DNA of 64,000 nt from Amaricoccus solimangrovi. Lineage in GTDB: Bacteria > Pseudomonadota > Alphaproteobacteria > Rhodobacterales > Rhodobacteraceae. Position numbers and translations under genes: made by a program. Within the stretch, counting starts at the first letter, position 1, and every line of letters starts with the position of its first letter. The notes below the pieces were generated by a model. It made no database searches. It saw only the letters and a program-made list of their open reading frames with translations, and was not told the origin of the DNA. This document shows, piece by piece, positions 1-14,646 of the stretch. The DNA lies in the NCBI RefSeq assembly GCF_006385685.1, contig NZ_VFRP01000003.1, positions 1 to 64,000 on the forward strand, read 5' to 3'.

Positions 1-462
1 GTTGCCCTCGCCCGTCATGATGTTGGCGAAGTTGTCGCCGTGAAAAGTGTTGACGGCCGCGTCGCCCAGATAGGGGTTGGGGAACACCTCGTAGGGGTCG
101 CTGTCGATGGTGACGATCATCGCGACCGCCGAGAGCGCCGTTGGCGGTCCGTCGGGGAAATGGAAGTAGGTCTCCCCGCCCGCGTCGAACACCACGACAT
201 CCACCGCCGGACCGGTTGGAACGATGACGCCGGCGACGCTAATTCCCGCCTGAACCGTGCCGCTGCCGACATAGGTCAGAGAATTTCCGTCGAAAGTGCT
301 GATTCCGCTGTCAGCGTTGCTCAGTGTGCCTTCGTTGTCGGCGAGGGTTCCCGTGGTCTGCGCGCTGAACGTTGAAAGCAGCAAGGTATTCTGGCCGGAT
401 AACAGATCGGGAGCAATCAAAGGTCCATTGTAACGACGCACACCTATGCTGGCGGTAGGCAT
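1..462 (-). CDS. RTX/Hint-type secreted protein, N-terminal 154 residues (runs off the left edge)
   Basis: The frame reads from ATG at 462 to the window edge without a stop and begins MPTASIGVRRYNG. A strong ribosome-binding site (AAGGGAAGG) lies just upstream. The N-terminal segment (about residues 35-110: GTLADNEGTL, DSGISTFDGNSL, YVGSGTVQAG, VDVVVFDAGGETYFHF) resembles the lead-in domain of rhodobacterial Hint/hemolysin-type calcium-binding proteins. Near the edge, HGDNFANIMTGEGN looks like the beginning of RTX nonapeptide-type repeats. Such proteins are usually secreted by a type I system and bind calcium outside the cell. No N-terminal signal peptide is seen, as expected for type I export. 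The C-terminal part and any exporter are outside the window. The AT-rich upstream DNA suggests its own promoter. Confidence 0.7.
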   Translation of the reverse strand, partial: MPTASIGVRRYNGPLIAPDLLSGQNTLLLSTFSAQTTGTLADNEGTLSNADSGISTFDGNSLTYVGSGTVQAGISVAGVIVPTGPAVDVVVFDAGGETYFHFPDGPPTALSAVAMIVTIDSDPYEVFPNPYLGDAAVNTFHGDNFANIMTGEGN

Positions 463-760
463 GTGGATCCCTTCCCTTTTGATCTTATATTTTTATATTA
501 TTGCCGTTTTATGGATATATATCCGCAACGACTCAGATTTCGTACCATGCACTCGTACAACGTGTCAATTACACGATCGTGATCTCTGGTCCGTGGATTT
601 CGGGGCCGTGAGCTAGCAACCGGCCCCCGGCGCGACTGCTCAACCCGCGCCGGGGACCTGACCAGGCATCCGGCAGAGGTGCCCGGGCGGCTGGCTGCGC
701 GAGCAGATCCGCTTCTTCGCAGGCGCGTCAATAGCTAGTCGGATCTGCCCAGGGCCTCGC
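463..760. promoter_or_regulatory. AT-rich upstream region of the RTX-type gene with several dyads
   Basis: I see no convincing gene here. Positions 480-525 are strikingly AT-rich for this genome. They contain the perfect palindrome GGATATATATCC at 513-524, about 50 bases upstream of the start codon at 462. Further out are CGTGTcaattACACG (561-575) and CACGATCGTG (572-581). Together these look like a promoter/operator region for the leftward RTX-type gene. The remainder, 600-760, is GC-rich with no supported coding frame. Confidence 0.4.
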
Positions 761-2132: not shown

Positions 2133-2182
2133 ACGGTTTTGGGTACCGTAGGTCGCTGGTTCGAATCCAGTCGCCCCGACCA
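2133..2182 (+). other. 3' half of tRNA-Pro(TGG): severed tRNA fragment, putative attachment site
   Basis: Read 5' to 3', this is anticodon stem ACGGT (2133-2137), loop TTTGGGT with anticodon TGG and G37 (2138-2144), and stem ACCGT (2145-2149). A 5-base variable region follows, then T-stem GCTGG, loop TTCGAAT, CCAGT (2155-2171), acceptor strand CGCCCCG (2172-2178), discriminator A and encoded CCA (2180-2182). It is the 3' half of a proline tRNA. The matching 5' acceptor CGGGGCG and the D-arm are absent upstream, so the gene is cut just before the anticodon stem. This is the scar expected at the distal end of an element integrated into a tRNA gene. Direct repeats of CGGTTTGC(A/G)AA at 2043-2054 and 2095-2106 lie just outside and might be recombination-protein sites. 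Confidence 0.85.
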
Positions 2183-2200
2183 GCCGCCAGTTGCTCCCCC

Positions 2201-3247
2201 TCAGCGCGTTTCCGGAAAGGTCTCCCGCCAGAGCGCCAGAAGCCGCGCGCGCTTCTGCCGGTCGAGGCCGACGAGCAGGACGGGCGAGAGCGGGATCGGG
2301 CGGGTGAACTGCGCGTCCTCGGGCGGATTTCCGGGGCCGGGGGTGAGATAGGTCTCGGCCAGCGCTCGCCGTCCCGGTTCGGAGAGCAGGAAATCGACGA
2401 ACGCGCCCGCCGCGCCGGGGTCGCGCGCGCCCTTCGGAATGAAGGCTCCGCGCGACAGGACGAGCGTGTAGTCGGAGGGCGTCACCACCGCGAGATCCGG
2501 GTTGGTCGCCGCCCGCACCATCGCATAGGGACCGAGGATATTGTACGCGACGAGGTATTCGCCCCGCGCGACCGCGTCGACGATCTCCGCCGAACAGCAG
2601 GTGGCGACGACGCGGGCCCGGCCGAAGGCCTCGATCAGCCCGCCGAAGGTCGTCGCCTGGATCGAATCGAGGAAGGCGAAGAGATAGCCGATGCCGGATC
2701 GCTCGATATCGTAGGTGGCGATCCGGCCGGCATAGACGCCATCCTCGCGGCGCAGCAGGTCGAGCAGGTCGAAACGCGAGGCGGGGGCGTCGCCCGGCGG
2801 CAGCAGCGCGCGGTTGTAGACCATCACCGCGGGCTCCGAGGTCAGGCCGAAGAGCTCGTCGCGCCAGTTGCGTTCCGGCGGCAGCGCCGCGGTCCCGGCC
2901 GAGCGATATGGCTGGGCGCAGGCGTCGTTGACGAGCTTCACCTGCTGGTCGACCGCCGAGGAGATCACAAGGTCCGGGACCGGCGCGGCGCCCGCGCAGG
3001 CGACCGTCATCGCCGCGAAGAGATCGTTGGTGTTCCATTGCTCGAGCGTCACCGCGACCGCCGGATGGGAGGCGACGAAGGCCTCGAGCGCCGGTGCGAA
3101 GGCGGGGATGTCGAGCGCGCCCTGGATCAGGATCGGATGGGCCGCGTCGGCCGCGCCATAGCGCGCGACGGCCTCCGGCCCCGGCTGGGCGGCCGCGCCG
3201 GAGCCGAGGCCCGCCAGGACGGCGCAGGCGAGAACGGCCCGCCTCAT
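2201..3247 (-). CDS. periplasmic solute-binding protein coupled to TctE (putative co-sensor)
   Basis: 348 residues with a signal peptide (MRRAVLACAVLAGLGSGAAA, cleavage near residue 20). The fold signature is that of type 2 periplasmic binding proteins of the iron/phosphoglycerate group, for example WNTNDLFAAMTVAC near residues 95-108 and VVTPSDYTLVLSRGAFIP near 252-269. There are no permease or ATPase genes beside it. Its ATG overlaps the stop of the TctE kinase gene (ATGA), so it is the third gene of a tctD-tctE-binding protein operon. PgtC of the Salmonella phosphoglycerate system is a precedent for a binding protein that works with a two-component system rather than a transporter. A sensory role is inferred; an orphan ABC binding protein is the alternative. 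Confidence 0.75.
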   Translation of the reverse strand: MRRAVLACAVLAGLGSGAAAQPGPEAVARYGAADAAHPILIQGALDIPAFAPALEAFVASHPAVAVTLEQWNTNDLFAAMTVACAGAAPVPDLVISSAVDQQVKLVNDACAQPYRSAGTAALPPERNWRDELFGLTSEPAVMVYNRALLPPGDAPASRFDLLDLLRREDGVYAGRIATYDIERSGIGYLFAFLDSIQATTFGGLIEAFGRARVVATCCSAEIVDAVARGEYLVAYNILGPYAMVRAATNPDLAVVTPSDYTLVLSRGAFIPKGARDPGAAGAFVDFLLSEPGRRALAETYLTPGPGNPPEDAQFTRPIPLSPVLLVGLDRQKRARLLALWRETFPETR

Positions 3248-4638
3248 CGCACCACCCCGGGCAGTTCCAGCGCGACGATGAAATGCCCCTCGCCCGTGTG
3301 TCCGAAGCGTAGCGCGCCGTCGTGGGCGCGCGCGACCGCGTCGACGATCGCGAGCCCGAGCCCGGCGCTCCGCGCCGAGACGCCGGCGCCCCGCGCGTAG
3401 CGCGTCGTCGCGTCCGCCCAGTGCTCCCTCGGCATGCCCGGCCCCGCGTCCTCCACCGCGAGCACGGCCCGGCCGGCCTCGGCGCGGACGGAGACGGTGA
3501 CCGGTGGCCTGCCGTGGCGGAGCGCGTTGAAGAGCAGGTTCTTGCAGGCCTCGACCAGCGACAGCGCGTCGCCGAGGCAGGGCACCTCCTCCTCCGGCAG
3601 ATCGAGATGAAGCTCCGCGGCCGAGGCGAAGAGGTCGCGGTCGGCCTCCCCGGTCGCGCGGATCGCCACTTCGCGCAGGTCGAGCCGCTCGCGCGGGACC
3701 GCGTCGGCGCGGTGGATGATGAGCGCGTGGTTCAGGAGCTGGTCCGCGAGGCGGCTCAGCGTCACGGAGCGGTCGTGGATCCGCCCGACGATCGCTCGCT
3801 GCCGGGCGGGGTCGGGTTCCTCCGCCGCGAGTTCTGCCTGGGCGCGCAGCGCGGCGATCGGGGTCCGCAGCTGGTGCGAGGCATCGGCGATCAGCGTGCG
3901 CGTCGCCGCGCTCTGGCGGCTGATCCGGTCCATGAAGCGGTTGAGCGCGCCGGTGAGCCCGGCGATCTCGCGCGGGACCGGCGTGCCGATCGGGGTCAGG
4001 TCCGTTGGTGGCCGCCCCGCGATCGCCCGCTCGATCCGCCGCAGCGGTTCCAGCGCGGAGCGCGCGGCGAAGGCGGCGAGCGCGGTCATCAGCAGGCCCG
4101 CGAGCGCCACGAGCACGAGCGCGTGCTCGGTGATGTCGCGGGCAAGCTCGCCTCGCGCGCGGGTGGTCTGACCGACGACGACCGCGACCGGCCCGCTCAG
4201 GTCGCGCTCGGCGAAGAGGCGGTCCGTCACCACGAAGCGCGCGGGCTCGCCGCCGAAATCGCCGTTGTAGAAACCCTCGAACCCCGGTTCCGGCCGGGGC
4301 AGGTCGTAGCCGGTGACGATGCGTCCGTCCGGGGCGAAGACCGCGTAGATCACCCGGTCGTCGGGGGCGAGCGCCAGGAGTTCGAACGCGCTGACCGGCA
4401 GGTCGACGCTGATCGCCCCGTCCCGCGGCGCCGTCGAATCGGCGATCTGGCGCGCGGCGCCGACGAGGAGCCGGTCATAGGCCTGCCGGGCCGCGCCCCG
4501 GCCATAGGCGAAGGCGAGCGCCGCGACGAGCAGGCCGCCCGCGGCGAGCAGGAGGGCGAGCGCCCCGGCGAGCCGCGCGGTCAGCGAGACGCTGCGCGGC
4601 GGATCGAGCGGCGCCGCCGGTCCGTCAACGCTCGGCAA
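3244..4638 (-). CDS. tctE: sensor histidine kinase, TctE type
   Basis: 464-residue membrane kinase. The first transmembrane helix is near residues 22-50, then comes a periplasmic sensor of about 110 residues of the two-component-sensor N-terminal type. A second helix (about 173-196) is followed by a HAMP linker. The HisKA box SHQLRTPIAALRAQAELA near residues 254-271 carries the phospho-acceptor His. ATP-binding N, G1 and G2 elements follow (NLLFNALRHG, VEDAGPGMP, AGLGLAIVDAV). Its start overlaps the end of tctD by 14 bases and its stop overlaps the start of the downstream binding protein. It presumably senses a tricarboxylate-type substrate and phosphorylates TctD. The ligand cannot be read from sequence. 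Confidence 0.88.
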   Translation of the reverse strand: MPSVDGPAAPLDPPRSVSLTARLAGALALLLAAGGLLVAALAFAYGRGAARQAYDRLLVGAARQIADSTAPRDGAISVDLPVSAFELLALAPDDRVIYAVFAPDGRIVTGYDLPRPEPGFEGFYNGDFGGEPARFVVTDRLFAERDLSGPVAVVVGQTTRARGELARDITEHALVLVALAGLLMTALAAFAARSALEPLRRIERAIAGRPPTDLTPIGTPVPREIAGLTGALNRFMDRISRQSAATRTLIADASHQLRTPIAALRAQAELAAEEPDPARQRAIVGRIHDRSVTLSRLADQLLNHALIIHRADAVPRERLDLREVAIRATGEADRDLFASAAELHLDLPEEEVPCLGDALSLVEACKNLLFNALRHGRPPVTVSVRAEAGRAVLAVEDAGPGMPREHWADATTRYARGAGVSARSAGLGLAIVDAVARAHDGALRFGHTGEGHFIVALELPGVVR

Positions 4639-5296
4639 CGAGCTGGTATCCGAGGCCGCGCAGCGTCCGGATCGAGACGCTGCTGCCTTCGAGCTTGCGT
4701 CTCAGGCGCGCGACATAGGTCTCGACCGCGTTCACGCCCACCTCCTCCTCGTTGAAGGAGAACATGCGGTCGAGGATCCGCTCCTTCGGGATCACCCGGC
4801 CGCGGTTCGCCAGCATGATCTCGAGCAGGCTGAATTCGCGCCGGGTGAGGGTGACCGGCACGCCCTGGACGCTGAGCGCGCATTGCGCGGGGTCGAAGAC
4901 GATGTCGCCGAATTCGATCAGCGCGGCGCGCGACTCCCCCGCCCGCCGCGTCAGCGCGCGCACCCGCGCGTGCAGCTCGCGCAGGTCGAAGGGCTTCACG
5001 AGGTAGTCGTCGGCGCCCTCGTCGAGCGCGGAGACGCGATCGTCCACCTTGGAGCGCGCGGTCAGCATCAGCACGAAGGTCGGGCTGGCCGCCGCCCGCA
5101 GCGCGGCGAGCACGTCGGTGCCGCTGCCGTCCGGCAGGCCGACGTCGAGGATGGCGACGTCGTAATCCTGCACCGCGATCAGTTCCAGCGCATCGGCGAC
5201 GCGCGCGGCGTGGTCCACCGCGTCGCCGCGCCGGGAGAAACTCGCCTCCACCGCCTCCGCGACATCCAGGGCATCCTCGAGCAGCAAGACACGCAT
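4625..5296 (-). CDS. tctD: OmpR-family response regulator, TctD type
   Basis: 223 residues from the ATG at 5296, chosen because GGAAGGGG lies 6 bases upstream and the receiver begins directly (MRVLLLEDALDVAEAV). An upstream extension to 5392 would add an unconserved basic tail. The receiver has the acidic pair in LLLED, the phospho-Asp in DYDVAILDVGLPDGSG, and the conserved Lys in DDYLVKPFDLREL. The C-terminal winged helix (about 125-220; LTRREFSLLEIMLANRGRVI, VNAVETYVARLRRKL) is of the OmpR/PhoB type. It is likely the activator of the divergent tctCBA operon, 183 bases away. Confidence 0.88.
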   Translation of the reverse strand: MRVLLLEDALDVAEAVEASFSRRGDAVDHAARVADALELIAVQDYDVAILDVGLPDGSGTDVLAALRAAASPTFVLMLTARSKVDDRVSALDEGADDYLVKPFDLRELHARVRALTRRAGESRAALIEFGDIVFDPAQCALSVQGVPVTLTRREFSLLEIMLANRGRVIPKERILDRMFSFNEEEVGVNAVETYVARLRRKLEGSSVSIRTLRGLGYQLVAER

Positions 5297-5479
5297 TCCA
5301 ACCCCTTCCGCCCGCTTGTTCGACCGCGGGTCGGTCACGGGGCGGAGCATATCCCCGGCGCGCCGGGCGGGAAAGCCATGCGACAGGCTCATGACAGGTT
5401 TCCCCTCTAGTCAGGGCGGAAGGCCCGCTCCGTCGGGAGCCTTGCAACGAAAAGATCAAGAGAAGATCCGGAGGAACCC
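5297..5479. promoter_or_regulatory. divergent tctD / tctC intergenic region
   Basis: 183 bases separate the divergent regulator and transporter operons, so this is where phosphorylated TctD would be expected to bind. I see no clean OmpR-type direct repeat or obvious -35/-10 pair in this GC-rich stretch. GGAGG just before 5480 is the ribosome-binding site of tctC. Confidence 0.4.
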
Positions 5480-6448
5480 TTGTCCAAGTTCACCTCTCTC
5501 GCCCTCGCCGCGGCCTTCGCGGCCACGCTCGCCCTGCCCGCGGCCGCCGAGATCGACCGGCCCGAATGCATCGCCCCCGCCCAGCCCGGCGGCGGCTTCG
5601 ACCTCACCTGCCGCGTGGCGCAGCAGGGTCTCGAAGGGCTGTTCGACCGGCCGCTGGAAGTCTCCTTCATGCCGGGCGGCATCGGCGCGGTGGCGTTCAA
5701 CATGTTCAACACCACCCGCACCGACGATCCGAACGCCATCGTCGCCTTCTCGACCGGGTCGCTGCTCAATCTCGTCACCGGCAAGTACGGCGCATGGACG
5801 GTCGACGACGCGCGCTGGCTCGCGACGGCGGGGACGGATTACGGCGCTGTGATCGTGCGCGCGGACAGCCCCTATCAGACGCTCGGCGACCTGATGGCGG
5901 CGCTCAAGGACGATCCGGCCAGCGTCACGGTCGGCGCGGGCGGGTCGGTCGGCTCGCAGGACTGGATGAAGGCGGCGCTGCTCCTGAAGGCGGTCGAAGG
6001 TGACCCGCGCAAGATGCGCTACGTGGCCTTCGACGGCGGCGGGGAGGCGCTCGCGGGCCTGATCGGCGGCGCCATCCAGGCCTATACCGGCGATATCGGC
6101 GAGATGTCCGCGCATATGGACGGCAGCCTGCGCATCCTCGGCGTCATGTCCGACGAGCGGCTGGACCCGCCCTTCGACGAGGTGCCGACGCTGAAGGAAC
6201 AGGGCTACGACGCGACCTGGCCGATCATGCGCGGCTTCTACATGGGCAAGGACGTCCCGGACGAGGATTTCCAGGCCTGGGTCGCCGTCTTCGAGAAGGC
6301 CCATGCCAGCGACCAGTTCCACAAGGCGCAGGCCGAGAAGGGCCTGCTGCCGCTGAACCTGTCGGGCAAGGAATTCGACGCGGCGGTGCGCGAGCAGACC
6401 CGCCAGCTTCACGACCTCGCCGTCGAGACCGGGCTCATCGCCAACTGA
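5480..6448 (+). CDS. tctC: tripartite tricarboxylate transporter periplasmic binding protein TctC
   Basis: 322 residues, TTG start with CGGAGG 6 bases upstream. A signal peptide (MSKFTSLALAAAFAATLALP, ending AAA) leads into the TctC/Bug fold: the CIAPAQPGGGFDLTCR ligand loop, FMPGGIGAVAFN, and VGAGGSVGSQDW. The family binds di- or tricarboxylates such as citrate with very high affinity and hands them to TctA/TctB. It is the first gene of tctC-tctB-tctA-abrB. A strong intergenic hairpin follows, which probably raises tctC message over the membrane genes. The substrate is unassigned. Confidence 0.9.
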   Translation: MSKFTSLALAAAFAATLALPAAAEIDRPECIAPAQPGGGFDLTCRVAQQGLEGLFDRPLEVSFMPGGIGAVAFNMFNTTRTDDPNAIVAFSTGSLLNLVTGKYGAWTVDDARWLATAGTDYGAVIVRADSPYQTLGDLMAALKDDPASVTVGAGGSVGSQDWMKAALLLKAVEGDPRKMRYVAFDGGGEALAGLIGGAIQAYTGDIGEMSAHMDGSLRILGVMSDERLDPPFDEVPTLKEQGYDATWPIMRGFYMGKDVPDEDFQAWVAVFEKAHASDQFHKAQAEKGLLPLNLSGKEFDAAVREQTRQLHDLAVETGLIAN

Positions 6449-6455
6449 CGCCTCC

Positions 6456-6495
6456 GGCCGGCGCGGGGGCGCGCAAGTCCCGGACCGCGCCGGCC
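6456..6495 (+). terminator. tctC-tctB intergenic hairpin (processing/attenuator stem)
   Basis: GGCCGGCGCGG (6456-6466) pairs perfectly with CCGCGCCGGCC (6485-6495) around an 18-base loop. No U-tract follows. It starts 8 bases after the tctC stop and lies 46 bases before tctB. It is best explained as a partial terminator or 3' stabilising stem that gives more TctC than TctB/TctA, a common arrangement for abundant binding proteins. Confidence 0.65.
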
Positions 6496-6541
6496 GATCC
6501 TTCCCCCGCCCGCGCGGCGGCCCATCTTTCCCGAGGTTCCC

Positions 6542-6979
6542 ATGCCTGACCGGATCTTCGCCGCGGCGCTCGCCGTCGTCACGCTGATCTACGGCGCGCT
6601 CGCCTTCTTCGTCATTTCCGCGCCGTTCCAGTACGACCCTCTCGGCCCGGAAGCCTGGCCGCGGCTGCTCTCGGTCGCGATGCTCCTCTGCCTGATCGGG
6701 CTGCTCTGGCGCCCGGCCACGCGGGATTTCGACGTGGACGGCCCCAGCTGGGCGCGGCTCGCGCTCGTGCTGGCGCTGCTGGTCGGTTACGCGGTGCTGT
6801 TCCAGCCGCTCGGATTCATCCTCTCGACCGCGCTCTTCGCGGCGATCACCTCGCGCCTGCTCGGCGCCGCCTGGCCGCGCGCGGCGCTCTTCGGCGTGCT
6901 GATCGGCGCCGGCGGCTACCTGCTCTGCGTGGGGCTGCTCGACCTCAATCTGCCGGCCGGCCCGCTGCCCCGGCTCTGA
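6542..6979 (+). CDS. tctB: tripartite tricarboxylate transporter small membrane subunit TctB
   Basis: 145 residues, four predicted transmembrane helices (about 5-25, 38-55, 76-95 and 100-140). The FQYDPLGPEAWPRLLS segment after helix 1 is typical of the TctB family, which has a conserved LGP..WPR loop. TctB is the poorly conserved small subunit that forms the permease with TctA. It lies directly upstream of tctA, 13 bases apart. Confidence 0.88.
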   Translation: MPDRIFAAALAVVTLIYGALAFFVISAPFQYDPLGPEAWPRLLSVAMLLCLIGLLWRPATRDFDVDGPSWARLALVLALLVGYAVLFQPLGFILSTALFAAITSRLLGAAWPRAALFGVLIGAGGYLLCVGLLDLNLPAGPLPRL

Positions 6980-6992
6980 AGGACCCTTTCCG

Positions 6993-8510
6993 ATGATGGA
7001 AGTGCTCTCCGGGCTCGGCACCGGCTTCTCGGTCGCCCTGACCCCGTTCAACCTGATGCTGGTGCTCGGCGGCTGCTTCGCCGGCACGCTGATCGGCGCC
7101 CTGCCCGGCATCGGCCCGATCAACGGCGTCGCCATCCTGCTGCCGATCGCCTACGGGCTCGGCTTTCCGCCGGAATCGGCGCTGATCCTGCTCGCGGGCA
7201 TCTATTACGGCGCCGAATACGGCGGCCGGATCTCGTCGATCCTGCTGAACGTGCCCGGCGACGCCGGCGCGGTGATGACGACGCTCGACGGCAACCCGAT
7301 GGCCAGGAACGGCCAGGCGGGCAAGGCGCTGTCGCTCTCCGCCGTCGCCTCCTTCGTCGGCGGCACGGTCTCGGTGGTGCTGATGTCGCTCTTCGGGCCG
7401 GTGCTCGCGAGTTTCGGCGTGAAGTTCCAGCCCTCGGACTACGTCGCGCTCATGGTCTTCGCCTTCGCCTGCCTCGCCTCGCTGGTCGGCTCCAGCCCGG
7501 TCAAGACGCTGATCGGCGCGCTGATCGGGCTGATGCTCGCGACCGTCGGCGTCGATGCGAATACCGGCGTGCAGCGCTACAGCTTCGGCATTCCCGACCT
7601 GCTCGCCGGGATCGATTTCCTGATCGTGGTGATCGGCCTCTTCGGCATGGCGGAACTCTTCCACCTCGTGGAAAGCCAGGTCCGGGGCCGGCTCTCCACC
7701 GTGCCGATCGACAAGAGCTTCGTCACCTGGGCCGATCTCGCCCGGACGAAATGGACCATCCTGCGCTCCTCGCTGATCGGCTTCATCATCGGCGTGCTGC
7801 CCGGCACCGGCGCCTCGGTCGCCTCGGCGGTCGCCTATGGCACCGAGAAGCGGATGGCGGGCGCGGGCGGCGCGAATTTCGGCAAGGGCGACATCCGGGG
7901 CCTCGCGGCGCCCGAGGCGGCGAACAACGGCTCCGCCGGCGGCGCGCTGGTGCCGATGCTGACGCTCGGCATCCCGGGATCGGGCACCACGGCGATCCTG
8001 CTCGGCGCGCTCCTGATGTTCAATGTGACGCCGGGGCCGATGCTCTTCGCGCAGCGGCCGGAGATCGCCTGGGGCCTGATCGCATCGATGTACATCGGCA
8101 ATGTCGCGCTTCTGGTGCTGAACCTGCCGCTGGTCGGGCTCTTCGCCCGGATGCTGACGATCCCGCAGCACTACCTGACGCCGCTCATTGCCATTCTGGC
8201 CTTCATCGGCATCTATTCGATCGTGGGCAATCCGTTCGACCTCTACATGATCATCGGTCTCGGCGTCTTCGGCTGGATCCTGCGCAAGCTCGACTTCGCG
8301 CTCGCGCCCGTCATCCTCGGCTTCGTGCTCGGCAGCCTGTTCGAGAACAACCTGCGCCGCGCGCTCTCGATCTCCGGCGGCGACTGGCGGATCCTGTTCT
8401 CGACGGTGGACAGCCTCGTGCTCTACGCGCTCGCGGTCGCGGTGGTCGTGGTGCCGATCTGGCTGTCGCGCCGCTCCCGCCGGTTCGCGGCCGTCGCCGA
8501 AGATGAATGA
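6993..8510 (+). CDS. tctA: tripartite tricarboxylate transporter large membrane subunit TctA
   Basis: 505 residues with about 11-12 transmembrane helices. It carries the duplicated TctA signatures: GTLIGALPGIGPINGVAILL near residues 33-52, and in the second half GFIIGVLPGTGASVASAVAYG with APEAANNGSAGGALVPMLTLG and IPGSGTTAILLGAL. The family uses the ion gradient to import carboxylates captured by TctC. The length is normal. Its last 8 bases overlap the start of the AbrB-family gene, so the two are translated together. Confidence 0.93.
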   Translation: MMEVLSGLGTGFSVALTPFNLMLVLGGCFAGTLIGALPGIGPINGVAILLPIAYGLGFPPESALILLAGIYYGAEYGGRISSILLNVPGDAGAVMTTLDGNPMARNGQAGKALSLSAVASFVGGTVSVVLMSLFGPVLASFGVKFQPSDYVALMVFAFACLASLVGSSPVKTLIGALIGLMLATVGVDANTGVQRYSFGIPDLLAGIDFLIVVIGLFGMAELFHLVESQVRGRLSTVPIDKSFVTWADLARTKWTILRSSLIGFIIGVLPGTGASVASAVAYGTEKRMAGAGGANFGKGDIRGLAAPEAANNGSAGGALVPMLTLGIPGSGTTAILLGALLMFNVTPGPMLFAQRPEIAWGLIASMYIGNVALLVLNLPLVGLFARMLTIPQHYLTPLIAILAFIGIYSIVGNPFDLYMIIGLGVFGWILRKLDFALAPVILGFVLGSLFENNLRRALSISGGDWRILFSTVDSLVLYALAVAVVVVPIWLSRRSRRFAAVAEDE

Positions 8511-9519
8511 CGCCTTCGCGCTCCCGCTCCGCACGCTCGCGATCGGCGGGGCGGGGGCCGCGCTCGCCGCGGCGGCGGGCCTGCCCGCCGGCGCGCTGAT
8601 CGGCTCGAGCCTCGCCGTCTCGATCGCGGCCTGGAACGGGATCAGGGTGGCGGTGCCGCCGCTCCCGCGCGAGATCGCCTTCGCCGGGATCGGGGTCTCG
8701 CTCGGGTCCGGCATCAAGCCGAGCATCCTGCATGACGTCGCCACCTGGGCGACGAGCCTCGGTCTGCTCTGCCTCTCGCTGGTCGCGACGCTCGCGGTCG
8801 CCGCGCTGATCCTGCGCCGGGTGTTCCGCTACGATTTCGCGACCTCGGTGCTGGCTTCGAGCCCCGGCACGATGTCCTACGCCGTCGCCGTCGCGCAGGG
8901 GGGCCGGGGCGACATGATCACCATCGTGATCCTGCAGAGCCTCAGGCTGCTCATCCTCGCCTCCGCCCTGCCGCTCGCGATCTTCCTCGCGATCTCGCCC
9001 CCGGCGCAGCTGGCCCCGCCGCTCGTGATGGGGCTGGTCGCGAGCGCGGTGCTCGTGGCACTTGCGATCGGCCTCGGCATTCCGCTCGGCCGGGCGGGGC
9101 TGCCGGCCTCGTTCCTCGTCGCCGGCATGCTGCTCTCGGGCCTCGCCCACGCGCTCGGCCTCGCGGAGGGCCGGCTGCCGCCCTGGGCGATCTTCGGCTG
9201 TTTCGCGATCACCGGCTCGGTGATCGGCACGCGCTTCTCGGGCATCTCGGCGCGGGCGATCCTGTCGCTCGTCGGCGCGGCGGTCGCGACCACGGGCACG
9301 GCGGCCGTCGTCTCGGCCCTCTTCGCCGCCACCGCGGCGCGACTCACGGACCTGCCCCTCGGCCAGGCCTGGGTCGCCTTCGCGCCCGGCGGGGTCGAAG
9401 CCATGGCCGCGATCGGCCTCGGCCTCGGCTACGATCCGGCCTATGTCGCGATCCACCACCTGGTGCGGATCCTGTTCCTGATCGTCGCCCTGCCCCTGAT
9501 CCTCGGGCGGAGCCGGTGA
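8503..9519 (+). CDS. AbrB-family membrane protein at the end of the tct operon
   Basis: 338 residues with about 9-10 helices arranged as two AbrB duplications. Each repeat has a glycine-rich hairpin (ALIGSSLAVSIAAWNG, FAGIGVSLGSGIKPSIL; LVAGMLLSGLAHALG, FGCFAITGSVIGTRFSG), and the SSPGTMSYAVAVAQGGRGDM element is typical of the family. AbrB proteins (named for an effect on aidB expression) have no firmly assigned transport role. Here the start lies inside tctA, so it belongs to the TTT operon. It may act as an additional carboxylate channel or export valve, which is inference. It converges with acpS 10 bases later. Confidence 0.8.
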   Translation: MNDAFALPLRTLAIGGAGAALAAAAGLPAGALIGSSLAVSIAAWNGIRVAVPPLPREIAFAGIGVSLGSGIKPSILHDVATWATSLGLLCLSLVATLAVAALILRRVFRYDFATSVLASSPGTMSYAVAVAQGGRGDMITIVILQSLRLLILASALPLAIFLAISPPAQLAPPLVMGLVASAVLVALAIGLGIPLGRAGLPASFLVAGMLLSGLAHALGLAEGRLPPWAIFGCFAITGSVIGTRFSGISARAILSLVGAAVATTGTAAVVSALFAATAARLTDLPLGQAWVAFAPGGVEAMAAIGLGLGYDPAYVAIHHLVRILFLIVALPLILGRSR

Positions 9520-9529
9520 GGCCCGGCGG

Positions 9530-9955
9530 TCACACCACCACGCTCGGCGGCGGCCCGGGATCCGGGATCGCCTCGAGGATGACGACGGCGTAGGCCCAGG
9601 GGTGATCGTCGGTCAGCGTCAGGTGCAGGACCGGCACGTGGCCCGGCGGGGTGAGCGCGGCGGCGCGCTCCCGGGCCCAGCCGGTCAGCATCAGCGTCGG
9701 CTGGCCGGTGGCGAGATTGACCACGCCCATGTCGCTCCAGACGATGCCCATCCGGAGCCCGGTGCCGAGCGCCTTCGAACAGGCCTCCTTCGCCGCCCAG
9801 CGCTTCGCATAGGTCTCCACCCGGTTCGCGCGGCGCTCGGCGGTCGCCCGTTCGATCGGCGTGTAGACCCGGTCGAGGAAGCGGTCGCCGAAGCGTTCGA
9901 GAGTCCGGCCGATCCGCTCGATATTGCAAAGATCGTTGCCGATGCCGAGGATCAT
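9530..9955 (-). CDS. acpS: holo-[acyl-carrier-protein] synthase
   Basis: 141 residues from the ATG at 9955, where [15 protein letters not shown] gives the family N-terminus. A longer frame to 10078 adds unrelated sequence. AcpS transfers 4'-phosphopantetheine from CoA to ACP. Visible signatures are the Mg-binding Asp in [12 protein letters not shown] and the [16 protein letters not shown] helix (about residues 60-75) with the catalytic Glu. The C-terminal [23 protein letters not shown] strand pair is also present. In many alphaproteobacteria acpS follows pdxJ directly; here a GNAT gene and a DUF1330 gene lie between them. Confidence 0.93.
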
Positions 9956-10028
9956 GCCGCCGCTCCCGCCGGGTGTTCGTCCGGTCGTTCTAGCGGCAAG
10001 CGGGACCGGGTCCAACCAGAGAGACACG

Positions 10029-10562
10029 ATGGCGGACATCACGATCAGGGCGGCGGAGGAAACCGACGCGGCGGGCATCGCCGCGATCTACAACGACGCC
10101 GTGGAGCATACGACGGCGATCTGGAACGAGGCGACCGTCGACGCGGCCAACCGGATCGACTGGATCCGCGGCCGGCGGGCGGCCGGCTATCCGGTGCTGG
10201 TGGCGGTCGATCCGGCGGGCCGGGTGGCGGGCTACGCCTCCTTCGGCGACTGGCGCGCCTTCGACGGCTATCGCCACACGGTCGAGCATTCCGTCTATGT
10301 CCGGGCCGACGCGCGCGGAGCCGGGATCGGCCCGCGGCTGATGCGGGCGCTGATCGCGGAGGCGCGCGACCTGGGCAAGCACGTGATGGTCGCGGGGATC
10401 GAGGCGGGCAATGCCGGCTCGATCGCGCTGCACGAGCGGCTCGGCTTCGCGCGGGTCGGCTTCATGCCCCAGGTCGGGACCAAGTTCGGCCGCTGGCTGG
10501 ACCTCGTCTTCCTGCAGCTCACGCTCGACGCGCGCGAGCGGCCCGGGGATGCTGCGCGCTAG
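10029..10562 (+). CDS. GNAT acetyltransferase, phosphinothricin/methionine-sulfoximine type
   Basis: 177 residues from the ATG at 10029 (AGAGAGA upstream). It starts [20 protein letters not shown], with [19 protein letters not shown] matching the first helices of the Pat/MnaT group. Core GNAT motifs are present: motif A with the acetyl-CoA loop in [20 protein letters not shown] (about 92-111), and motif B in [20 protein letters not shown]. Members acetylate methionine sulfoximine, phosphinothricin or related amino-acid analogues. The real substrate is unknown. It is divergent from acpS with a 73-base shared promoter region, and convergent with the DUF1330 gene. Confidence 0.85.
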
Positions 10563-10574
10563 CGCCTTCGGGGT

Positions 10575-10868
10575 TCAGCCGAGCTCGCCGCGCAGCAGGA
10601 CCAGGCTCCGCTTCGCCGCCTTCGCCGCGAAGACCCGCGCCGCCTCGTAAGCGGGATCCTCGTAGCAGGCTCGCGCCGCCTCGTGGCTCGGAAACTCGAC
10701 GAGCAGCATCCGGCTCGCGTCGCGGGCCTCCAGAAGCCGCGCGGCTTCCGAGACGCTCACGAGACGCGCCCCGTACCGCTTCGCGATCGGCGCCCAGAGG
10801 GCCCCGTATTCCGCCTGCGCGGCCTGGTCCGTGATCTCGGTGCCAAGGATGAGCCAGTAGCCTTTCAT
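10575..10868 (-). CDS. DUF1330 family protein
   Basis: 97 residues. MKGYWLILGTEITDQAAQAEY, the central MLLVEFPSHEAARACYEDPAYEAAR and a short C-terminal strand match DUF1330, small dimeric alpha-beta barrel proteins (EthD/ABM-like fold). Their reaction is not established. It lies between pdxJ and the GNAT gene, transcribed in the same direction as pdxJ, from whose end it is separated upstream by 44 bases. It may be co-transcribed with acpS, with the GNAT gene on the opposite strand in between. Confidence 0.8.
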   Translation of the reverse strand: MKGYWLILGTEITDQAAQAEYGALWAPIAKRYGARLVSVSEAARLLEARDASRMLLVEFPSHEAARACYEDPAYEAARVFAAKAAKRSLVLLRGELG

Positions 10869-10912
10869 TCGATCCTCCCGATCATGCCCCTTCCGCTCCG
10901 GAGGCGGGGCGG

Positions 10913-11686
10913 TCAGTCCGCGCGGTTCCGGACCAGGGCGCGGGCCGCGTCCATCGCGGCGCGCATCCGCTGGATCGAGGCCTCGAGTCCGACGAAGATC
11001 GCCTCCCCGATCAGGAAATGGCCGATGTTGAGTTCGGCGAGCTCCGGGATCGCCGCGATCGGGCCGACGCTGTCATAGGTGAGCCCGTGGCCCGCGTGCA
11101 CCTCGAGGCCGATCCCGCGCGCGAAGGCGGCCATCTCGACGATGCGCGCCAGTTCCGCGTCGCGCGCCGCCGTCTCGCCCGCGACTTCGGCGTCGCAATA
11201 GGCGCCGGTATGAAGCTCGATCACCGGCGCGCCGATGCGCCGCGCCGCCTCGATCTGGCCCCGGTCGGCGGCGATGAACATCGAGACCCGGCAGCCGGCC
11301 TCGGCGAGCGGCGCGACGAAATCCGCGAGCCGGGCCTCGTCGCGCAGGATGTCGAGCCCGCCCTCGGTCGTGCGCTCCTCGCGTTTCTCCGGCACGAGGC
11401 AGACGGCATGGGGCCGGAGCCGCAGCGCGATCGCGCGCATCTCCTCGGTCGCGGCCATCTCCATGTTGAGCGGCAGGGTGAGGTTCGCGGCCAGCGCCTC
11501 GATGTCGGCGTCGGTGATGTGGCGGCGATCCTCGCGCAGATGCGCGGTGATTCCGTCGGCGCCCGCCGCCTCGGCGAGCCGCGCGGCGCGCAGCGGGTCG
11601 GGCACCGGCCCGCCCCGCGCGTTCCTGACGGTCGCCACGTGATCGATGTTCACCCCGAGCCTGAGCCGTCCATCTGATCCGGTCAT
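10913..11686 (-). CDS. pdxJ: pyridoxine 5'-phosphate synthase
   Basis: 257 residues. PdxJ condenses 1-deoxyxylulose-5-phosphate with 3-amino-2-oxopropyl phosphate to give pyridoxine 5'-phosphate. Signature blocks are [16 protein letters not shown] (residues 11-26), [14 protein letters not shown] with catalytic His and Arg, [51 protein letters not shown] and [15 protein letters not shown]. The length is normal. AGGACC lies upstream of the ATG. It heads a leftward group with the DUF2062 gene, rsh and rpoZ upstream of it in the same orientation, a typical alphaproteobacterial order. Confidence 0.95.
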
Positions 11687-11754
11687 GATGAGAGGTCCTT
11701 TCCGTCAGCCGCGCGCAGGTTATACGCCCGGCCGCGCCACTTGCCAGCCCGCGC

Positions 11755-12402
11755 TCATTCGGCCTCGCCGGCGTGGGTCGGCGCGGCGTCGAGCCGCGTC
11801 TTCGCCCGCCGGAGCATCCGCGTCCGCCGTCGCGCCTGGTAGGCGGTGACGATCGGCCGCACCATGTAGTACGAGGCGATGCCGGTGACGATCCCCGGCA
11901 GCAGGCCGCCCACCATGTAGGGCCAGGCCATGTCGTAGACGAAGAGGCTCAGCTTCTGCCATTGCGGATGGCCGAAGCCGAAGAGGCTGAGCGAGCTTTC
12001 CCAGAGCCCGGACGCCGCCTGGCTGAAGGCCTCGGCGATGCGGCCGAAGTCGCGGCCGGAAACCCCGTGGCCGAGGATGCGGCGGCCGAGCGTCAGGCTC
12101 AGCCCCGCGATGAAGGGAAAGGTCAGCGGATTGCCGACCAGCGTGCCGATCAGGCTCGCCATCACGTTGCATCGGAGAAGCCAGGCCAGCCCGACGCCGC
12201 AGACGAGGTGCAGACCGAAGAGCGGCGTGAAGGAGATGAAGGCGCCGCAGGCGAAGCCGAGCGCGATCCGGTGCGGCGTGTCGGGCAGGCGGCGCACCCT
12301 GTGCCCGAGATATTCGATCCCGCGCCGGTAGCCCCGGCGCGGATAGACCCATTCGCGCAGCCGGACCAGCACCGGCGGCTTGTCGCGTCGCTTGAAGACC
12401 AT
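11755..12402 (-). CDS. DUF2062 membrane protein
   Basis: 215 residues. A basic N-terminus (MVFKRRDKPPVLVRLREWVY) is followed by the DUF2062 block: TPHRIALGFACGAFISFTPLFGLH, VMASLIGTLVGNPLTFPFIAGLS, and a C-terminal hydrophobic pair with GGLLPGIVTGIASYYMVRPIV. About three to four transmembrane helices are predicted. Some DUF2062 proteins are fused to glycosyltransferases, but no function is established for the stand-alone form. It sits between rsh and pdxJ, as in related genomes. Confidence 0.85.
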   Translation of the reverse strand: MVFKRRDKPPVLVRLREWVYPRRGYRRGIEYLGHRVRRLPDTPHRIALGFACGAFISFTPLFGLHLVCGVGLAWLLRCNVMASLIGTLVGNPLTFPFIAGLSLTLGRRILGHGVSGRDFGRIAEAFSQAASGLWESSLSLFGFGHPQWQKLSLFVYDMAWPYMVGGLLPGIVTGIASYYMVRPIVTAYQARRRTRMLRRAKTRLDAAPTHAGEAE

Positions 12403-12462
12403 CGCGCGTGACCGCCGCCTTCCCTTCCTGACCGGCGCGACGGCCCCGCCGCGCCGAAGCCG

Positions 12463-14646
12463 TCAGCCGCCCGCGGCTGCTTCCTCGGTCGAGGGCGCGC
12501 GGTAGCGCCGCGCCTCGGCCACATCCGAATCGGCTTCGAGCGCCGTGAGGATGTGCGTCAGGTGTTCCATATCCCTGACCTCCGCGTCTATCAGCAGTCG
12601 ATAGAAATCCGGCTTGCGGTCGGCGAAGACGATGTTGGTGATGTTGGCCCTATGCTCTCCGAGCAGGGTGCAGATCCGCCCGAGCACGCCGGCGTCGTTC
12701 GCCATCACCACCTCGATCCGCACCATATGCTCGGCATGGGCGTTGCCTTCGGCCCAGCGCAGGTCGATCCAGCGGTCGGGCGTATCCTCGTAGGCGACGA
12801 GGCTCGCGCAGTCGATCGCATGGATCACGACGCCCTTGCCCCGCACGGCGATGCCGACGATCCGTTCGCCCGGGATCGGGTTGCAGCAGGGCGCGGGATG
12901 CGCGGTCTGGCCGGAGCCGAGGCCGATGACGACCGACTGCTTCGGATCGGGCGTCCGGGGCAGCCCGGCCTCGCGGATCAGTTCGGGATAGAGCGTGGCG
13001 ACCAGATCCTTGCCCGTCATCTCCGCGCCGCCGAGCCGGGCCAGCACGTCGTCGGCCTCCTCGAGGCCGAGCCGGCGCGCGGCGGTCTCGAGCGCCTTGT
13101 CGGTCGCCTTCTTGCCCACGCGCTCCAGGCTGACGCGGGCGATCTCGCGGCCGAGCCGCACCTGGGTCGCGCGCTGCTCGCCCCGGATCGAGCGGCGGAT
13201 CGCGGATTTCGCGCGGCCGGTGACGACCATGTCCTCCCAGGAGGGCTGCGGCCGCTGCCCCTCGGCGCGGATGATCGTGACCTGCTGGCCGTTCCTGAGC
13301 TTGGTCCAGAGCGGCACGCGCTGCCCGTCGACCTTGGCGCCGACGCAGCTGTCGCCGATCCGCGTATGGATCGCATAGGCGAAGTCGATCGGCGTGGCGC
13401 CCTTCGGCAGGTTCACCACCTCACCCTTCGGCGTGAAGCAGAAGACGTGGTCGGTGAACATCTCGAGCTTCACATGCTCGAGGAAATCGCTCGAATCCTC
13501 ATTGCCGTCGAATCGCTCGGTGATCGCGCGGAGCCACTGGAACGGATCGACCGCGAAGGGATTCTCGAACCGCTCCCCGTCCTTGTAGGACCAGTGCGCG
13601 GCGACGCCTGTCTCGGCCACCGCGTGCATCTCGGCGGTGCGGATCTGCACCTCGACCCGTTTGCCGTCGCGGCCCGAGACCGTGGTGTGGATCGAGCGGT
13701 AGCCGTTCGACTTCGGCTGGCTGATGTAGTCCTTGAACCGCCCCGGCACCGCCGTCCAGCGCCGGTGCACCGCGCCGAGCGCGGTGTAGCAGTCCGCGAC
13801 CGAATCGGTGATGATGCGGAAGCCGTAGATGTCCGAGAGGCGCGAGAAGCCTTCCTTGCGCTCCTCCATCTTGCGCCAGACCGAATAGGGCTTCTTCTCC
13901 CGGCCGAAGACCACCGCCTCGACCCCAGCCTGGTCGAGCGCGACGCGGATGTCCTCGGTGATCTTCGGGATCACGTCGCCGCTGTCGTTGCGAAGCGTGA
14001 CGAAGCGGCGGATGATCGACTTGCGCGCTTCCGGGTTGAGGATGCGGAAGCCGATGTCCTCGAGCTCGTCGCGCATCCACTGCATGCCCATCCGGCCCGC
14101 GAGGGGCGCGAAGATCTCCATCGTCTCGCGCGCCTTGCGGGCCTGCTTCTCGGGCCGCAGGTGGCGGATCGTGCGCATGTTGTGCAGCCGGTCGGCGAGC
14201 TTCACCAGGAGCACGCGCGGATCGCGCGACATCGCCATCAGGAGCTTGCGGAAATTCTCCGCCTGCGCGTTCTCGACCGAGGAGAGCTCGAGATTGGTGA
14301 GCTTCGTCACCCCGTCGACGAGCTGCGCGATCTCCTCCCCGAAGCGGCGGGCGATCGCGCCATAGGTCGAGCCCGTATCCTCGATCGTGTCGTGCAGCAG
14401 CGCGGTGATGATCGTCGCGTCGTCGAGCCGCTGCTCGGCGAGCAGCATGGCGACGGCGACCGGATGGCTGAAATAGGGCTCGCCCGAGGAGCGCAGCTGG
14501 CCGGAATGCATCTCCCGGCCGTATTCATAGGCCTCGGCGAGCAGCGCCGAACTGGAATTGGGATTATAGGAGCGGACGAGATCCGTGAGGCTCGTGACCG
14601 GGATGATGCCGTCGGGGCCCGGCTTGACCGGGATCATCTCCGCCAT
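12463..14646 (-). CDS. rsh: bifunctional (p)ppGpp synthetase/hydrolase (Rsh, RelA/SpoT family)
   Basis: 727 residues. The N-terminal HD hydrolase (about 45-200) has HPVAVAMLLAEQRLDDATII followed by LLHDTIEDT and LADRLHNMRT. The synthetase (about 240-360) has the bifunctional RFKD motif in VPGRFKDYISQPKSNGYRS, not the EFDD of synthetase-only RelA. TGS (about 390-450; VFCFTPKGEVVNLPKGATPIDFAY), a conserved middle region and a C-terminal ACT domain (about 645-720) complete the standard architecture. It makes and degrades the stringent-response alarmone, the single Rsh expected in alphaproteobacteria. It is next to rpoZ, whose product forms the ppGpp site on RNA polymerase. Confidence 0.95.
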   Translation of the reverse strand: MAEMIPVKPGPDGIIPVTSLTDLVRSYNPNSSSALLAEAYEYGREMHSGQLRSSGEPYFSHPVAVAMLLAEQRLDDATIITALLHDTIEDTGSTYGAIARRFGEEIAQLVDGVTKLTNLELSSVENAQAENFRKLLMAMSRDPRVLLVKLADRLHNMRTIRHLRPEKQARKARETMEIFAPLAGRMGMQWMRDELEDIGFRILNPEARKSIIRRFVTLRNDSGDVIPKITEDIRVALDQAGVEAVVFGREKKPYSVWRKMEERKEGFSRLSDIYGFRIITDSVADCYTALGAVHRRWTAVPGRFKDYISQPKSNGYRSIHTTVSGRDGKRVEVQIRTAEMHAVAETGVAAHWSYKDGERFENPFAVDPFQWLRAITERFDGNEDSSDFLEHVKLEMFTDHVFCFTPKGEVVNLPKGATPIDFAYAIHTRIGDSCVGAKVDGQRVPLWTKLRNGQQVTIIRAEGQRPQPSWEDMVVTGRAKSAIRRSIRGEQRATQVRLGREIARVSLERVGKKATDKALETAARRLGLEEADDVLARLGGAEMTGKDLVATLYPELIREAGLPRTPDPKQSVVIGLGSGQTAHPAPCCNPIPGERIVGIAVRGKGVVIHAIDCASLVAYEDTPDRWIDLRWAEGNAHAEHMVRIEVVMANDAGVLGRICTLLGEHRANITNIVFADRKPDFYRLLIDAEVRDMEHLTHILTALEADSDVAEARRYRAPSTEEAAAGG

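Follow-up and report, generated by a model that had tools for sequence, protein, structure and literature searches.

The window, that is, the whole 64,000-nucleotide stretch of DNA analysed here, comprised the first 64 kb of contig C60 in the Amaricoccus solimangrovi draft genome (G000; 135 contigs, 4.86 Mb). By direct reading, positions 2133-2182 contained the anticodon stem-loop with TGG, the T arm, the 3' strand of the acceptor stem and the CCA of tRNA-Pro, and alignment to an intact tRNA-Pro(TGG) gene elsewhere in the genome lengthened this to an exact repeat of 52 bp on the + strand (2133-2184), with no extension to the left. Residues 1-27 of the tRNA were absent at 2133, and residues 28-77 plus two further bases were present. 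No intact tRNA was called by ARAGORN in the 64-kb window and no tRNA by Rfam at gathering scores, so that no intact 5' half exists there; direct reading, ARAGORN and Rfam agreed with the preliminary description, in which this piece was a tRNA-Pro(TGG) 3' half with the 5' half replaced by unrelated DNA. The break, which had been placed at or just upstream of the anticodon stem, was located at the 5' edge of that stem. Two further places in the genome matched the 52-bp core (E = 1.3e-20), which excluded a chance match, and the folded fragment formed the two expected stems with ordinary stability (z -0.31).

To the right of the scar, on the host side, three genes were found on the - strand: a solute-binding-protein gene (2201-3247; PF13531 and others) with its stop codon 16 bp from the scar and with orthologues in the relatives G009, G007 and G010, a sensor kinase gene (3244-4638) and a gene for a TctD-like response regulator (4625-5392), the latter two being named from Pfam, with NCBIfam matches below the curated cut-off, and collinear in G009 and G007. 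The best match of the solute-binding-protein gene in a named record was to Rhodobacteraceae bacterium DSL-40 (72%). DNA comparison matched the gene in 4 of 11 genus-set genomes, and protein comparison (E <= 1e-20) matched it in 18 of 61 relatives (own genome counted in both cases), and the earlier wording of 'conserved core genes' on this side was therefore too strong. The contrast that had been drawn between patchy DNA on the left and conserved genes on the right was real in base composition, with a GC content of 0.60 at 1-2132 and 0.72 at 2185-12000 (0.61 in contig C94, discussed below), but the right flank was itself patchy rather than uniformly conserved core.

The DNA left of the scar (1-2132), which runs up to the contig end, was assigned to the right end of a prophage from its arm-like sites (see below), its low GC content, its link to contig C111 and a near-copy at the start of contig C1 (95% like window 1-581), and it may include other inserted or decayed DNA. 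An ORF on the - strand (1-462) encoded the N-terminal part of an RTX-repeat protein continuing on C111, where the RTX repeats were recognised by PF00353 (E 7.3e-55). C111 also encoded a 686-aa protein with no matches in Pfam, PHROGs or phage records; PHROGs gave nothing for C111 or for window 1-462, and neither the N-terminal RTX part (1-462) nor the DNA of 1-2132 had a match in phage records. An mmgR/suhB-like sRNA gene lay inside the prophage end (1943-2017, + strand; Rfam RF00519, 43.6 bits against a cut-off of 41) and none was found in the three other scar loci or in the right part of the Paracoccus phage Pyei1; a better-scoring copy (56.1 bits) was present on contig C56. Positions 1474-1646 showed 72-80% identity to plasmid DNA of Ruegeria, Spirosoma and Ensifer, in or near amidohydrolase genes. 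A plasmid search returned four records, all at this amidohydrolase-like piece, which is apparently a bacterial gene remnant within the accessory end.

The 52-bp core recurred in the same genome at C94:1-52 and C53:42-93. On C53 it was part of a complete tRNA-Pro(TGG) gene (C53:44-120, - strand) that shares 52 of 52 bp with the scar and ends the contig. The ends of C53 and C94 overlapped by 93 bp, 41 bp beyond the repeat, and end overlaps of exactly 93 bp were also found between C111 and C60 and between C111 and C1. Since other contig-end pairs likewise overlap by exactly this length, the C53-C94 overlap is an assembly link and represents one physical place; in the draft this 3' half thus occurs twice, once in an intact gene and once as a scar. 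The check proposed in the preliminary description, to look elsewhere in the genome for an intact tRNA-Pro(TGG) with an identical 3' half, thus led to a gene linked to an integrase-bearing contig.

The tRNA gene and the scar sit on different contigs, and the middle of the prophage is absent from the assembly. The first 93 bp of the window (C60:1-93) are the end of C111, and the same 93 bp also start C1, so that C111 could be joined as well to C60 as to C1; contig C24 likewise contains the last 93 bp of C94. With the end of C94 common to C24, and C111 joining both C60 and C1, the two prophage ends are without a physical link. Contig C24 carried an integrase gene and C94-like DNA beside tRNA-Arg(TCT), and a second related prophage there is the likely explanation of the assembly breaks. 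The end of this second prophage at tRNA-Arg(TCT) was located at 6029-12682 of locus L143 (G000:C24:120001-132682). At 4141-4155 of locus L144 (G000:C1), 15 bp exactly repeat the 3' end of tRNA-Arg(TCT) (E 0.005), and this copy may be the attR of the tRNA-Arg(TCT) prophage. Contig C64, a 33-kb phage contig with terminase, tape measure and tail fibre genes, could form the middle of either the tRNA-Pro or the tRNA-Arg prophage; no 93-bp end common to C64 and the prophage ends was found.

Contig C94 (7,988 bp) encoded a tyrosine integrase/recombinase of 368 aa (C94:1929-3035, - strand; PF00589, E 5.9e-9; phrog_1, E 2.1e-24), two HTH proteins resembling phage repressors (Pfam, PHROGs) and a 510-aa protein (C94:351-1883) with AlbA_2 and RecG-C-like domains, for which PADLOC gave a weak match only (5e-4) and whose gene separates the core from the integrase. 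The distance from the tRNA to the start of the integrase match was 53-78 bp in five relatives. The nearest phage integrase, best of 19 phage records, was that of Paracoccus phage vB_PyeM_Pyei1 (61.7% identical). Relatives of the integrase at E <= 1e-30 were found at 56 places in 51 of 394 family genomes; the best 30 of these 56 places were fetched, and 29 loci, besides the own one, were examined for tRNAs. Beside the integrase lay tRNA-Cys(GCA) at 22 loci, tRNA-Pro(TGG) at three and tRNA-Trp(CCA) at one, and at the remaining three no tRNA was found. The Pro users formed one group of seven with a FastTree support of 0.999 in a tree that included two IMG/VR contigs and Pyei1, and all six other members of this clade, in which the C94 integrase groups with that of Pyei1, were located at, or annotated to, tRNA-Pro(TGG). 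The integrases of the same family at tRNA-Cys(GCA) and tRNA-Trp(CCA) likewise lie beside tRNA genes, but have other targets and belong to other branches. The anticodon-arm sequence GGTTTTGGGTACCGTAGG (window 2133-2150) was present at 7/7 Pro-type integration sites, yet only in 107/394 family genomes, and the Pro-type integrase may require this stem sequence.

In the Pyei1 record (MK291445.1; PMC6536676), bases 1-52 bear the annotation 'attachment site in tRNA-Pro(TGG)', and Pyei1 resembles the present element in having the 3' 52 bp of tRNA-Pro(TGG) as core, a right arm pair 12 bp apart, and an annotated gene for a Ca2+-binding hemolysin-type (RTX-type) protein near the right end. The two differ in that the Pyei1 integrase gene starts 7 bp from the core, whereas the AlbA_2/RecG-C-like gene intervenes in G000, and in that the large terminase of Pyei1, the sole head or tail gene compared, had only a 30% relative in G000, on the unlinked contig C64. 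The published account of Pyei1 states that its integration reconstituted an intact target gene, and Table 3 of that account lists the Paracoccus prophages Pami1, PD38 and PD50 with tyrosine integrases at the same tRNA-Pro(TGG) gene (PMC6536676). No publication combining prophage, tRNA-Pro, Rhodobacteraceae and integrase was found in a literature search.

Short motifs resembling integrase arm sites were present on both sides of the core. To the left, an outer site TTTGCA (2046-2051, + strand) and an inner site TTTGCG (2098-2103, + strand) began at -87 and -35 relative to 2133. Sites at -87/-35 were also found beside the scars of the relatives G306, G267 and G146 and at -86/-35 in G123, the outer site thus keeping its position to within 1 bp; in Pyei1 the outer left site alone was seen, at -88. 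The two-site left spacing occurred in the 64-kb window at a single place (2132-2134, + strand), with no instance on the - strand. To the right of the core, a TTT[GA]C[AG] pair 12 bp apart was present in 7/7 attL or attP sequences (+26/+38 or +27/+39 in six, +47/+59 in G123), and this pair occurred once in C94 and was absent from the window. The left spacing being unique in the window and the 12-bp pair being found in C94, the DNA left of the scar is tied to the same attachment system as C94. The integrase presumably binds these arm-like sites. The identity of each scar to its own tRNA gene started at the base matching 2133 in the window, 2134 in G123 and G146, and 2135 in G267 and G306; as the latest start was at 2135, exchange would have taken place at or right of 2135 if one position is common to all. 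Together with the conserved GGTTTTGGGTACC, this points to a crossover inside the anticodon stem-loop, a position deduced from sequence comparison. The anticodon stem-loop corresponds to the 'A' sublocation in the Islander paper (PMC4383910), where 2083 of 3919 islands are given as anticodon-centred and 3760 of the 3919 as having a 3' fragment, so that the layout of the scar is a common one.

In G267, G123 and G306, the three further family genomes found to have a Pro-type integrase, there was in each case a 48-50-nt copy of the tRNA 3' half without a tRNA call. The two IMG/VR contigs held the intact gene only and no second copy, both ending before the place where one would be expected (the larger one 35 kb past the gene). 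The exact 18-nt core pattern was present in 107/394 family genomes, the pattern being blind to scars in the other 287, where the gene has different bases at these positions. At least two core matches were found in six genomes; four of them (G000, G123, G267 and G306) have the integrase, and no integrase was found in the other two (G146 and G236). More than one core copy thus occurred in 4/4 genomes with a Pro-type integrase versus 2/390 others (Fisher p 1.5e-8). The copies in G236 were two complete tRNA genes 312 bp apart, and G146 had a scar with no integrase between scar and tRNA. The right flank of the G123 scar repeats the attL flank of the same genome at 44/50 bases, about 34 bp of them exact (L229, G123:C118:9000-17500, around 6745); in G306 the corresponding figure was 24/50 bases. 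Judging from such flanks, elements in some relatives (G123, G306) may be tandem or remnant.

Comparison with relatives for an empty site, also proposed in the preliminary description, gave a negative result. Nine genus relatives had an intact tRNA-Pro with mostly different DNA downstream (by eye alike in G010 and G003, less clearly in G002), and the nine genus-set tRNA-Pro loci matched the window at the tRNA alone, an alignment running 22 bp further in G004 being too short to count. At none of 77 other loci holding the solute-binding gene was a tRNA-Pro found nearby; the flanks covered extended 1.5 kb at 18 loci and as far as 8 kb at the other 59 (some shorter, and a few genomes counted twice). 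In 3/3 genus relatives having it (G009, G007 and G010), this gene adjoins a YciA-like thioesterase gene, a name given from a family match below its cut-off. The orthologue of the thioesterase gene in G000 was located on contig C97, the first 1.5 kb of which matches none of the G009, G007 and G010 loci, and a reciprocal break product, with the region downstream of tRNA-Pro in G009 joined to C97, was not found. An uninterrupted site with tRNA-Pro joined to the right flank was thus found in no relative, and such distant relatives cannot exclude one in a close strain. Given that relatives lack tRNA-Pro beside the solute-binding gene, either the pre-phage order arose by rearrangement in this lineage, or the missing middle hides a more complex history.

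The exact repeat, the intact tRNA gene, the integrase contig linked to it, the arm-like sites, which match at the two ends, and the recurrence of this arrangement in relatives were all directly observed, and 2133-2184 is very probably the attR of a temperate prophage whose integrase is of the Pyei1 type. The element is read as a prophage because the nearest integrase is that of a phage, Pyei1, with a 52-bp tRNA-Pro(TGG) attachment site, and the preliminary description was borne out in regarding the scar as the distal end of an element that recombined into a tRNA gene. The phage attP would carry a copy of the tRNA-Pro(TGG) 3' end; with the integrase bound to arm sites on either side, attP and the host tRNA gene would recombine inside the anticodon stem-loop. 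The phage copy would thereby complete the host tRNA gene at attL (C53/C94), the end with the integrase, and the original 3' half of the host gene would be displaced to the far end, where it would now form 2133-2184, beside the host genes from 2185 on. C94 and C60:1-2132 would accordingly constitute the two ends of one element, and tRNA-Pro and the DNA from 2185 on would have been adjacent before integration. The term 'severed', applied earlier to the tRNA gene, does not hold on this mechanism, as the gene would be restored by the element at its other end. Integration at a secondary site was considered and rejected, since it predicts the tRNA 3' core on the phage side of the exchange, and the core was found on the host side.

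It is improbable that the scar is instead the attR of a different, perhaps older, tandem or decayed element, the C94 prophage having an attR of its own that was not assembled. The missing middle, the contig ends common to a second prophage, the bacterial gene remnant in 1-2132, the tandem-like G123 and the G146 scar without integrase would all fit such a history, but the draft has a single scar copy, and the left arm of the scar has the layout of the C94 integrase clade. That layout, which belongs directly beside such a scar, also makes it highly improbable that misassembly at the 52-bp repeat brought unrelated flanks together at the junction, as might be supposed from the presence of the repeat at a contig end as well, the 135 contigs of the draft and the lack of tRNA-Pro beside the right-flank gene in relatives. 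The 93-bp contig overlaps are moreover longer than the repeat, and the sole alternative pairing of flanks (tRNA 5' half with 2185 onwards, arm with C94) corresponds to excised forms of the same element. Half tRNA genes may also come from deletion or partial duplication, and a decayed tRNA pseudogene or partial duplication would need no mobile element. This origin is extremely improbable for a fragment that is 100% identical over 52 bp with an abrupt edge, that has arm-like sites at fixed spacing and an integrase linked to the intact copy, and that has a like scar in 3/3 genomes with the integrase; the pseudogene was rejected on the exact repeat, the arm-like sites and the integrase link.

With the attR of a prophage as the preferred reading, the right boundary of the prophage is fixed to the base and tied to a clade of integrases whose tRNA target and arm layout are defined. 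A half tRNA in the raw sequence predicts where both the intact gene and the integrase are located. Scars of this kind are well known, and this one is ordinary. As described in the Islander paper (PMC4383910), tDNA islands share the regeneration of the tRNA at one end, the displaced 3' fragment at the other and the anticodon-centred site, and there was no difference in kind, the present case being a draft-genome prophage with tRNA and fragment on different contigs. Of specialist interest are the change of target in the integrase family (Cys, Trp, Pro) and an integrase-less restriction cassette at the same site.

This cassette, in G146, occupied 2.56 kb between an intact tRNA-Pro(TGG) and a 3' scar (1946-4588 of L226, G146:C7:106500-113500) and contained one long gene, of 616 aa, for a type IV restriction enzyme (Mrr_cat, E 1.6e-29; PADLOC type IV restriction, 2e-61) and no integrase, both arm sets being kept (right +47/+59, left -87/-35). 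It resembles the elements termed 'cis-mobilizable'. The Pyei1-type tRNA-Pro(TGG) site could conceivably serve as a docking port for phages and for integrase-less cargo cassettes that use a phage integrase in trans, a tentative and rather doubtful proposal, the plain alternative being that the G146 cassette is a prophage that has lost its middle. The AlbA_2-domain gene of the G000 prophage was found at the place matching that of the G146 cargo, just inside attL.
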